A DNA stretch of 47,585 nucleotides from Anaerolineales bacterium. GTDB lineage: Bacteria; Chloroflexota; Anaerolineae; Anaerolineales; Villigracilaceae. The position numbers were made by a program, and so were the translations under genes. Shown one piece after another: positions 6,056 to 8,181 of the stretch. Location of the stretch: the NCBI GenBank assembly GCA_016934715.1, contig JAFGSI010000068.1:1-47585 (forward strand), read 5' to 3'. Within the stretch, counting starts at the first letter, position 1. Each line of letters starts with the position of its first letter. The notes beneath the pieces were generated by a model. It had not been told where the DNA came from. It ran no database searches and worked only from the letters and a program-made list of their open reading frames with translations.

Positions 6056-7189
6056 GTGGTCACCATCGAGAAAGTCGACACCGAGAACAAGGCCCAGGTC
6101 AGGCGCTTCGTCGAATTTCAATACGACCATTATCGGGACTGCCCGCAGTGGGTCCCACCGTTGTTCGTGGACGCCTATCTGCCCCTCAACCGCAAGAAAC
6201 ACCCCTTCTTCGAGCACTCGGAGGCGGATTTTTTCATCGCCGTCCGCGACGACCAGATCGTCGGGCGCATCTGCGCGGCCAACAACCGGCCCTACAACGA
6301 CTATCACAAAACGAATAAGGGCCATTTTCATTTGTTCGAAAGCGTGGAGGATCCCGAAGTCGCCCGGGCGCTCTTCGAGGCCCTCTTCGACTGGGCTCGA
6401 TCCCGCGGCCTGCACACGGTCATCGGGCCAAAAGGCCTGTCGTCCTTCGATGGCTACGGCATCCAGGTCGAGGGCTTCGAGCACCGCCAGATGATGACCA
6501 TGATGAACTACAACTACGACTACTACCCCCGGCTGGTCGAAGGGCTCGGATTTGAAAAGGAGGTCGACTTCGTCTCCTGCTACCTGCCGGCCGAGGCCTT
6601 TCACATCCCGGAGCGGATCGAACGGATCGCCCAATGGGCCATGAAACGCCAGCACCTGCAGATCAAGCATTTCAAGAGCAAGCGCGAACTGCTCCAGTGG
6701 GCTCCTCGCATCGGCCAGGCTGCCAACCAGGCCTTCGTGAACAACTGGGAATACTACCCGCTCAGCGCCGGCGACATCCAGTACGCGGTTGACAACATCT
6801 TCCTGGTCGCCGACCACCGCATGATCAAGCTCATCCTGCACGGCGATGAGATCGTCGGTTTCCTGTTCGCCTTCCCCGACGTTTCCGCCGCCCTGCAGCG
6901 CGCCCGCGGTCGTCTGTTCCCGTTCGGCATTGCCGACATCCTGCTCGAGATGAAACGCACCAAGACCGTCGCCGCGAATGGAATGGGCATCCTGCCGGCC
7001 CACCAGGGCACCGGCGGCAACGCCCTGCTCTACTACGAAATGGCCCAGACCCTCTTCGCCTTCAACCAGTTCGAACACGTCGAAATGACCCAGATCGCCG
7101 AGACCACCCACCAGATGCGCGCCGACCTGAAGAATCTCAACGGCGTCGAATATAAGAACCACCGCGTCTACCGGAAAGCACTCGCATGA
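6056..7189 (+). CDS. YghO-like GNAT-fold protein, copy 1
   Basis: A 377-residue protein related to the GNAT-superfamily proteins typified by E. coli YghO. Family landmarks are the QWVPPLFVDAY segment near residue 35, NRKKHPFFEHSEADFFIA (about 47-64), VGRICAANNRPYNDYH (about 70-86), and the C-terminal acetyltransferase half with GRLFPFG and GTGGNALLYYEM. Substrate and acyl donor are unknown. A GTG start at 6056 is chosen because AAGGAG lies exactly six bases upstream and the length then equals that of the two paralogues at 23142 and 24288. Upstream in-frame sequence would overlap the divergent cluster. Its stop overlaps the start of the next gene (ATGA). It is more divergent than the other two copies are from each other, with unusual NYNYDYYPRLVEG and NNWEYYPLS segments. 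Confidence 0.78.
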   Translation: MVTIEKVDTENKAQVRRFVEFQYDHYRDCPQWVPPLFVDAYLPLNRKKHPFFEHSEADFFIAVRDDQIVGRICAANNRPYNDYHKTNKGHFHLFESVEDPEVARALFEALFDWARSRGLHTVIGPKGLSSFDGYGIQVEGFEHRQMMTMMNYNYDYYPRLVEGLGFEKEVDFVSCYLPAEAFHIPERIERIAQWAMKRQHLQIKHFKSKRELLQWAPRIGQAANQAFVNNWEYYPLSAGDIQYAVDNIFLVADHRMIKLILHGDEIVGFLFAFPDVSAALQRARGRLFPFGIADILLEMKRTKTVAANGMGILPAHQGTGGNALLYYEMAQTLFAFNQFEHVEMTQIAETTHQMRADLKNLNGVEYKNHRVYRKALA

Positions 7190-7743
7190 CACAAACGCCT
7201 ATGCGCTGCCCGCTGGACTTCACCCCCCCGACCGCCCGCAAGCCCCTTTTTCTGTACCTGCTCGCCTGGACCCTGCTCCTGTTCGCCGTCTTCCAGGCGC
7301 TCAATGCCCCGCTGCGGACCCCCGCCGCCCCAGCAGGCATCGTCACCTTCGAACTTGCCCGCACCCCCGCCAATGCCCAGGCCATCCTGGACTCGTGGTC
7401 CCACTGCAGCACCTGGACCTTGGCCGCCTTCGGTCTGGGCTTCGACTATCTCTTCATGCCATCCTACGCCGTGACCCTGGCGCTGGGCGTCCTGGTGGCT
7501 GCCGGCAGGCACCCGGGATGGTTCGCCCGCCTTGGCGCCTGGATGGGATGGGCCGCCTTTGCAGCGGCCATCCTGGACGCGTTGGAAAACCTGGCCCTGT
7601 TCCAGATCATGCTCCTGTCAGGGGCAGAAGTCTGGCCCGGAATGGCCTTCTGGTGCGCGACGATCAAGTTCGCGCTTCTGCTGGCCGGGATCCTCTATGG
7701 CCTGACCGGCTGGCTGTGGCCCAAAGGAAAACCTGCCGGATAA
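7186..7743 (+). CDS. Small four-TM membrane protein, unknown family
   Basis: A 185-residue hydrophobic protein with four probable helices, at about 22-42, 82-105, 118-140 and 152-178. Conserved-looking residues include FDYLFMPSYAV and LDALENLALF. I do not recognise the family. It overlaps the acetyltransferase gene by four bases (ATGA), so the two are almost certainly one transcript. A perfect 12-bp hairpin terminator follows the stop codon. Confidence 0.7.
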   Translation: MTQTPMRCPLDFTPPTARKPLFLYLLAWTLLLFAVFQALNAPLRTPAAPAGIVTFELARTPANAQAILDSWSHCSTWTLAAFGLGFDYLFMPSYAVTLALGVLVAAGRHPGWFARLGAWMGWAAFAAAILDALENLALFQIMLLSGAEVWPGMAFWCATIKFALLLAGILYGLTGWLWPKGKPAG

Positions 7744-7745
7744 TA

Positions 7746-7775
7746 CAAACTCCCGCCGCAATTGGCGGGAGTTTG
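7746..7775. terminator. Bidirectional hairpin terminator
   Basis: A perfect 12-bp stem (CAAACTCCCGCC paired with GGCGGGAGTTTG) has a 6-nt loop. It lies between the convergent membrane-protein gene (stop at 7743) and the cold-shock gene (stop at 7797). The stem ends in AAA/TTT, giving a short T-run on either strand. Confidence 0.8.
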
Positions 7776-7796
7776 TTGATGGTCGGATTGGTCTTC

Positions 7797-8006
7797 TTAG
7801 ACGATGGTTACGTTGACAGCCTGCGGGCCCTTCTGGCCCTGCTCGACGCTGAATTCGACCTGCTGGCCCTCGTTGAGGGAGCGGAAACCGTCAGACTGGA
7901 TGGCAGAGTAGTGGACGAAGACATCCGGGCCGCTTTCGCGTGCAATGAAGCCATAGCCCTTCTCGCCGTTGAACCACTTGACCGTGCCGATGATACGTTC
8001 AGACAT
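7797..8006 (-). CDS. Cold-shock domain protein (CspA family)
   Basis: A 69-residue single cold-shock domain with both RNA-binding motifs: [12 protein letters not shown] (RNP1-like, about 9-20) and DVFVHYSAI (RNP2-like, about 27-35). Family members bind single-stranded RNA/DNA, melt hairpins, and in E. coli CspA/C/E act as transcription antiterminators. The start at 8006 is preceded by AAGGAGG with an 8-nt spacer; in-frame upstream codons belong to the leader. A good promoter lies about 140 bp upstream, leaving a long untranslated leader with a terminator-like hairpin and a hairpin over the ribosome-binding site. The gene ends just before the shared terminator at 7746-7775. Confidence 0.93.
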
Positions 8007-8011
8007 TTGTG

Positions 8012-8028
8012 TTGCCTCCTTGTGGCAA
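8012..8028 (-). promoter_or_regulatory. Small hairpin overlapping the csp ribosome-binding site
   Basis: On the transcript TTGCC and GGCAA can pair around a 7-nt loop. The AAGGAGG Shine-Dalgarno sequence lies half in the loop and half in the 3' arm. Five base pairs are weak, so it would be open most of the time at high temperature. This is a structural suggestion only. Confidence 0.3.
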
Positions 8029-8072
8029 TTGAAAAAAGAAATTGTGTGACAGGTTCGTTCCATCGGACGATC

Positions 8073-8105
8073 AAAAAAAATAACCCGGGCGAAGAAACCG
8101 CGGGT
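8073..8105 (-). promoter_or_regulatory. Candidate transcription attenuator in the csp leader
   Basis: Reading the transcript strand, ACCCG-c-GG pairs with CC-CGGGT around an 8-nt loop (TTTCTTCG). One C is bulged. The stem is followed by TA and then eight consecutive T residues (forward A-run at 8073-8080). This is the shape of an intrinsic terminator, placed about 40 bases after the predicted transcription start and about 70 bases before the ATG. Confidence 0.45.
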
Positions 8106-8152
8106 CATCGTCTTCTCTTCCAACGTGAACGTACTGGCATCTTACAACCTCA

Positions 8153-8181
8153 ATCATAATGCCGAATGCCGTAACCGTCAA
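8153..8181 (-). promoter_or_regulatory. Sigma70-type promoter of the cold-shock gene
   Basis: On the minus strand TTGACG (8176-8181) and TATGAT (8153-8158) are separated by exactly 17 bp. This is the best promoter match in the window. Predicted start near 8146 gives a leader of about 140 nt, comparable to the long leaders of enterobacterial csp genes. Confidence 0.7.

Follow-up and report, generated by a model that had tools for sequence, protein, structure and literature searches.

A conserved leader RNA of csp genes in Anaerolineales as a candidate transcription attenuator

The window, that is, the whole stretch of 47,585 nt analyzed here, carries on its reverse strand a csp gene coding for a cold-shock domain protein, which is preceded by a sigma70-type promoter and by a leader in which several conserved elements were delimited (Table 1). 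The promoter and the leader length of about 140 nt given in the initial annotation agree with the positions of the promoter boxes and of the start codon and, judging from the promoter position, transcription of csp would start at about 8146. Upstream of its start codon, the csp frame continues without a stop as far as a TTG at 8123, yielding a 108-aa ORF (8123-7797). Folding of the 144-nt csp leader gave -44.2 kcal/mol and a z score of -3.7, with none of 200 shuffles being equal, and placed most of its length in one long predicted hairpin, the tip of which is the terminator-like hairpin P4.

Table 1. Features of the csp gene and its leader in the window, listed from the promoter to the gene.
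Feature	Position	Strand	Evidence
csp promoter, sigma70-type, TTGACG-17-TATGAT	8153..8181	-	10/12 consensus matches
Conserved csp leader RNA element (P1, P2, P4, U-tract)	8043..8145	-	covariance model R1, 89 bits, E 2e-19 in own genome
P2 outer helix, 5' strand GUUCACGUUGGA	8119..8130	-	P2 covariation
CGUUG of P2 5' strand, pairs alternatively with CGAUG at 8110-8106 (candidate stem Palt)	8121..8125	-	
Terminator-like hairpin P4, 27 nt, one bulged C	8081..8107	-	folding, terminator score, covariation
U-tract (U8), directly after P4	8073..8080	-	7/9 post-P4-core positions 84-97% U in 76 leaders (set favouring U-tract-bearing leaders)
P2 outer helix, 3' strand UCCGAUGGAAC, made only after U-tract	8057..8067	-	synthesis order, covariation
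Shine-Dalgarno hairpin UUGCC-ACAAGGA-GGCAA	8012..8028	-	stem of at least 5 bp in 71/76 leaders
Start codon of csp	8006-8004	-	
csp gene, cold-shock domain protein, 69 aa	7797..8006	-	ORF list; PF00313, 107 bits, E 1.7e-30

A bulged GC-rich hairpin about 40 nt into the leader, followed by eight T residues, had been described for this locus, and both are present as P4 and the adjoining U-tract. The 50-nt hairpin region of the window folds at -18.1 kcal/mol (z -3.2), with 1 of 200 shuffles being as good. A simple terminator scan of the window did not list the csp leader terminator, which we suppose to be due to the bulge. The terminator score D, calculated with our own implementation of a published formula and taken as a pass at D > 0, was 36.5 for the window leader. 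Two features of an intrinsic terminator, namely a stable GC-rich hairpin and a U-tract directly 3' of the stem, were found, and the putative terminator lies between the csp promoter and the csp start codon, as in an attenuator, and does not look like that of the upstream gene.

A protein search in 61 genomes, the own one included, gave a match in 60, and the 30 best csp loci were picked by protein alone for comparison of their leaders. A common layout was recognized by eye in 28 of the 30 leaders (exceptions L018 and L028): the promoter is followed by GUAGGAU..CAGUAAGUUCRCGUUGGA, an A-rich linker and the GC hairpin P4, and then by the U-tract (often UUUUGUUUU), UCCGAUGGAAC, a short 3' flank and the Shine-Dalgarno hairpin. 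Twenty-seven of these leaders, L008, L018 and L028 being excluded, formed the seed A1 of the covariance model R1, which the window leader matches by construction because it is among the seed sequences. R1 matched 83 of 121 relatives at E 0.01, and in at least four of the 83 matched genomes (G105, G108, G117 and G119) the only matches were at sites not upstream of csp. From the 102 R1 matches 69 were inspected, those left out being mostly antisense copies of listed matches, plus L005 and L007; 55 of the 69 were upstream of csp (28.5-97.8 bits), 54 as recognized by a csp pattern and L083 by eye on a cut contig, while the other 14, at 12 loci, were not (24.3-33.8 bits) and mostly look like ordinary terminators. 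A larger set, A2, comprised 86 matches at E 1e-6 from 88 chosen sources, 76 of them distinct; weak leaders such as L008, L018, L028 and L103 were lost at this threshold, and L091 and L102 were not entered. All 76 aligned elements, the window copy included, have a TANNNT box upstream, 7 nt from the element start in 42 of them, and 71 additionally have a TTGACA-like box at a spacing of 16-19 nt. In one genome with tandem csp genes (L022, also L071), two element copies are found about 500 nt apart (1365-1465 and 1859-1961).

With regard to the spread of the element, a strict DNA pattern found 25 loci in named species genomes, all labelled as Chloroflexi, Chloroflexota, Anaerolineae, Anaerolineales, Anaerolineaceae or Anaerolinea. 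A second model, R2, used at E 1e-4 with strict filters by which weak matches may be lost, matched 23 genomes in each of two samples, one of the class (346 genomes) and one of the phylum (350 genomes), the matches being mostly common to both, and all of them fell within the order save those in G398. This genome, placed outside the order, has two strong element matches (L130, L144) and a listed contamination of 7%, so that transfer and contamination are both possible. Judged by these comparisons, the window leader represents an RNA conserved among csp leaders of the Anaerolineales. The initial annotation had named lack of hairpin conservation in close relatives as grounds for abandoning its proposal; the hairpin was found to be conserved, so the proposal is not refuted on this point.

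The conserved fold consists of P1, P2 and P4, which form one arm separated by loops, with an internal loop between P2 and P4. Changes on both sides of the pair were observed for 10 of the 11 P4 pairs and 8 of the 11 P2 pairs in the 76 distinct leaders, an alignment fitted to the covariance model and thus leaning towards it, and for 9 of 11 and 2 of 11 pairs, respectively, in the 27-leader seed, which was aligned by sequence alone. Paired cells in P2 and P4 amounted to 91.1% in the 76 distinct leaders as compared to 85.0% after shuffling; RNAalifold on the 27-leader seed predicted P4 only. Partner-swap tests with 48 leaders less than 80% identical gave p = 0.0005 each for P1, P2 and P4 (z -6.8, -6.7 and -10.7, respectively), to be read against the inflation of such tests by kinship, since reversed-sequence controls went down to z -3.5 (P2 itself). 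These results indicate that the partners of P1, P2 and P4 co-evolved. Conservation of the U residues through pairing with the A-rich strand was rejected: the same test for the U-tract and the opposite strand detected no co-evolution, with p = 0.89 within the order (48 leaders) and p = 0.94 outside it.

The terminator score separated the leaders from controls: D > 0 was obtained for 28 of the 30 protein-chosen csp leaders, which are free of U-tract selection although 27 of them also form the seed, vs. 5 of 180 shuffled leaders of the same set. The csp 3' ends of the 30 loci likewise passed in 28 cases, and with a median D of 23.7 the leaders are weaker than these 3' ends (47.6). L010 failed (D -16.9). 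In L018 and L028, which represent one divergent family of the order, an insertion follows the hairpin and the U-tract is poor or absent; the former failed with D -37.6 and the latter weakly passed with 6.2, and the terminator feature seems lost or weak in both. A chance hairpin is ruled out by the z score of the hairpin region, the covariation of P4 and the comparison with shuffled leaders. A terminator of the upstream gene is disfavoured, as the nearest long upstream frame is co-directional at 15 and divergent at 14 of 29 judged loci, the direction being taken from the longest open frame and L008 not being judged.

Moreover, the leader signal is directional. The 30 leaders pass in 28 cases in sense and in 7 in antisense, as compared to 28 and 22 for the csp 3' ends. 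The U-tract positions hold 1.2-1.8 bits vs. 0.3-1.1 bits on the opposite strand in the 76 leaders, a set collected by a model that contains the U-tract and therefore favouring leaders that bear one. The U profile of the leaders resembles that of the csp 3' terminators, except for a frequent G at the fifth position. Taken together, the sense/antisense bias, the U profile and the score contrasts are better explained by selection for a terminator acting in the csp direction than by a U-rich loop kept for pairing. The intrinsic terminator proposed for the csp leader is well supported at the level of comparison, by the covarying stem, the adjacent directional U-tract, their conservation in the order and a similar layout elsewhere in the class.

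The main rival to a terminator is a long 5' hairpin that sets stability or translation of the mRNA, e.g., as a substrate of RNase III, with the U-tract serving as a single-stranded Csp site, a reading we regard as rather unlikely. It would account for the conservation of P1 and P2 across the U-tract and their formation only in full-length leaders, and it has a precedent in S. aureus cspA, where, according to the available part of the report (PMC3386247), a long 5' hairpin is cut by RNase III, and the short leader that remains bears a small stable hairpin; the Shine-Dalgarno hairpin described below would fit the part of this short leader, and a structure of a Csp with UUUUUU has been reported, as far as the excerpt of PMC7704496 goes. 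However, it leaves unexplained why the U-tract adjoins P4, why the signal has a direction and why it is like csp 3' tails, and the arm is broken by the internal loop between P2 and P4 and is not a single long perfect duplex. A leader of the S. aureus type would be expected to hold a long and nearly continuous duplex of at least 20 bp; in the window leader, P1, P2 and P4 make up one arm with loops in between. The window leader is similar to that of S. aureus in combining a csp gene with a long 5' hairpin, whereas the latter forms a nearly perfect 32-bp helix in the accessible text of PMC3386247 and the former has a GC hairpin with a conserved directional U-tract tipping broken helices.

Returning to a leader terminator, the order of synthesis constrains what each helix could do. 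The 3' strands of P1 and P2 are made after the U-tract, therefore the outer helix cannot decide termination; as modeled, it is the leader of read-through transcripts that it shapes. P1 and P2 are kept on both sides of the U-tract, which implies that the read-through leader is functional too. In classical transcription attenuators and terminator riboswitches an intrinsic terminator lies in the leader between promoter and gene; in contrast to these systems, neither an antiterminator structure nor a ligand site was identified in the window leader, and the leader comparisons revealed no antiterminator fold that would unfold P4. A constitutive, leaky and unregulated terminator that lowers csp output, or whose short U-tailed leader RNA may titrate Csp, would be consistent with this result and with the moderate terminator score; the read-through function implied by the conservation of the outer helix argues against it, and we consider it quite unlikely.

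Two pairings of the 5' end could precede closure of the outer helix. Palt, in which CGUUG of P2 would pair with the linker immediately preceding P4, matches at 5 of 5 positions in 47 of 76 leaders as compared to 15% in shuffles (partner-swap p = 0.064) and is suggestive only. The second pairing, between the 5' end and the P4 loop, gave z -4.5 and is likewise suggestive only because reversed controls reach -3.5. If both were real, the leader might act as a bistable cold-shock RNA switch, in which the first ~25 nt would initially pair with the linker (Palt) and the P4 loop and later with the stretch beyond the U-tract (P1, P2), and Csp protein or temperature would set the winning fold; csp genes of the class would then possess an autoregulatory attenuator that senses Csp shortage via its own product. 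This remains doubtful, and no such attenuator of cold-shock genes, autoregulatory and shared by a whole class, was seen in the open-access literature searched. The idea that P4 senses temperature by melting was rejected: pairing of the nascent P4 averages about 0.9 at 10, 25, 37 and 55 °C, with the mean unchanged and the lowest single leader at 0.00-0.05, and this steadiness speaks against a simple thermal switch.

The Shine-Dalgarno hairpin constitutes a second conserved domain of the csp leader. In the window and in relatives, the Shine-Dalgarno sequence of csp is located in and beside its loop. An anti-Shine-Dalgarno role of the P2 3' strand was rejected, with CCUCC present in just 29 of 76 leaders and swap z scores of -2.4 to -2.5 lying within the control range. 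Leader-peptide attenuation, in which translation of a short ORF over P4 would control termination, is very improbable: the window leader does contain ATG CCA GTA CGT ... TGA, with 11 codons before the stop, yet an ATG occurs within the first 40 nt in just 39 of 76 leaders, and the 29 leaders with an ATG in the first 15 nt have frames of 3 to 42 codons, 7 of which stay open. Hence, no short ORF over the terminator is conserved among the 76 leaders, and leader-peptide attenuation was rejected.

Outside the order, scores were obtained for 25 csp leaders that belong to other families in the class, 29 loci having been fetched and L173-L176 dropped since the csp pattern found no gene. Without shuffled controls, 17 of the 25 had D > 0 in sense and 6 in antisense (20 of 28 in sense when three leaders picked by R2 are included), and the sense score exceeded the antisense score in 21 of the 25. 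Several of these leaders start with a similar GUAGGxUGxAGUAAG stretch, while the stem sequences differ. In the 17 passing leaders the flanks of the hairpin pair mutually (p = 0.0004 vs. swapped flanks; reversed control p = 0.74); outer and inner flank halves tested apart were not significant in these leaders (p 0.37 and 0.065). The hairpin and the flank pairing suggest that the layout, i.e., a terminator-like hairpin tipping a long outer helix, seems to extend beyond the sequence motif.

Concerning known RNAs, no family of Rfam 15 was found for the csp leader RNA. The E. coli cspA thermosensor family RF01766 was matched at gathering score by 5 of 12 related loci, with matches that span leader and coding region. 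L016 with its gene scored 108 and 120.9 bits to RF01766, whereas its leader without the gene, the single leader tested alone, gave no match up to E 10; the window leader with its gene reached 65.7 bits, under the gathering score of 78. Membership in RF01766 was rejected, as in the case tested (L016) the score comes from the coding region. The likeness to the E. coli thermosensor lies in the structured leader of a csp mRNA, and unlike the window leader, that of E. coli cspA showed no terminator-like hairpin by the same scan. Going by their titles, a 2010 study by Giuliodori reportedly describes a translational thermosensor in the E. coli cspA leader and a 2024 study by Delaleau Rho-dependent switches in the same leader. 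In S. aureus, autoregulation of CspA was reportedly described by Caballero in 2018. An intrinsic terminator in a csp leader was not recognized in any report in the open-access literature, seen in part, which is weak evidence of absence.

Effects of cold-shock proteins on terminators are on record in two other bacteria. In E. coli, CspA, CspC, CspE and CspD reduce termination at intrinsic terminators (metY-rpsO, SgrS), as stated in the available sections of PMC9765468; the likeness to the window leader is that cold-shock proteins act on terminators, but the E. coli targets in these sections are other genes, whereas here it is the csp leader that carries the candidate terminator, and the Csp action is putative. 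In B. subtilis, two terminators (manR-manP and liaH-liaG) showed more read-through when CspB and CspD were lost and the pyr operon showed less, according to the excerpted text of PMC8307031. The 5'UTRs of B. subtilis cspB and cspC with their cold shock boxes are comparable as regulatory csp leaders of a species in which Csp affects terminators; unlike for the window leader, terminators in these leaders are unmentioned in the accessible text (PMC8307031). The sign of the effect would thus differ by analogy, since E. coli Csps seem to oppose termination and those of B. subtilis seem to promote it in most cases, as far as the portions available tell. A real terminator at which Csp favours termination, as negative feedback limiting csp when free Csp is abundant, would match manR-manP and liaH-liaG (PMC8307031, in part) and might suit an abundant chaperone; the reduced intrinsic termination in E. 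coli (PMC9765468, in part) and the opposite response of the pyr operon (PMC8307031, in part) make it unlikely.

On balance, the compared leader sequences make it somewhat probable that the conserved leader RNA acts in cis to attenuate transcription of csp, with read-through probably set by Csp. RNA polymerase would first make the 5' strands of P1 and P2 and then P4 and the U-tract, which together would act as an intrinsic terminator of moderate strength, so that some transcripts would stop as RNAs of ~70 nt. Polymerases that read through would complete P2 and P1 with their 3' strands, upon which the leader would close into one long hairpin, followed by the short hairpin that would expose the Shine-Dalgarno sequence and allow csp to be translated. 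The share of read-through would probably be set by Csp bound to the leader as it emerges, the U-tract being a candidate binding site. Comparison supports the fold as well as the presence, direction and spread of the U-tract; that transcription does terminate there, under regulation and with Csp as the regulator, is our inference. Csp is the natural candidate because of the structure with UUUUUU and the effects of Csp proteins on termination in E. coli and B. subtilis, in so far as the excerpted reports cover them. That Csp itself opens the leader terminator, as the initial annotation had proposed, is plausible by analogy; that annotation had missed both P1/P2, the outer helix, and the hairpin with the Shine-Dalgarno sequence, which a terminator-antiterminator loop alone leaves unexplained.

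A leader terminator conserved together with csp in Anaerolineae would offer a natural and portable test of Csp self-control through termination, in a small system of a ~140-nt RNA, one small protein and one terminator; the effects of Csp on termination found in print concern other genes (PMC9765468 and PMC8307031, portions available). Being unmatched in Rfam 15, the csp leader is moreover a candidate RNA family, and if termination holds true, it would join the thermosensor of E. coli and the RNase III processing of S. aureus as a way of controlling csp through its leader.

The own genome contains three csp matches, and the other two genes have no leader terminator. The second csp (L002, contig C59) has a diverged leader with GUGUUC/GAACAC flanking a GC hairpin and a poor U-tract (D -18.3), and the third (L003, contig C86) has a different leader (D -47.2). 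Finally, a strong inverted repeat, ACTCCCGCC..GGCGGGAGT, is located in the window at 7740-7785, between csp and a convergent frame on the forward strand (7186-7743); with D 32.3 in the csp direction, it may be a shared two-way terminator.
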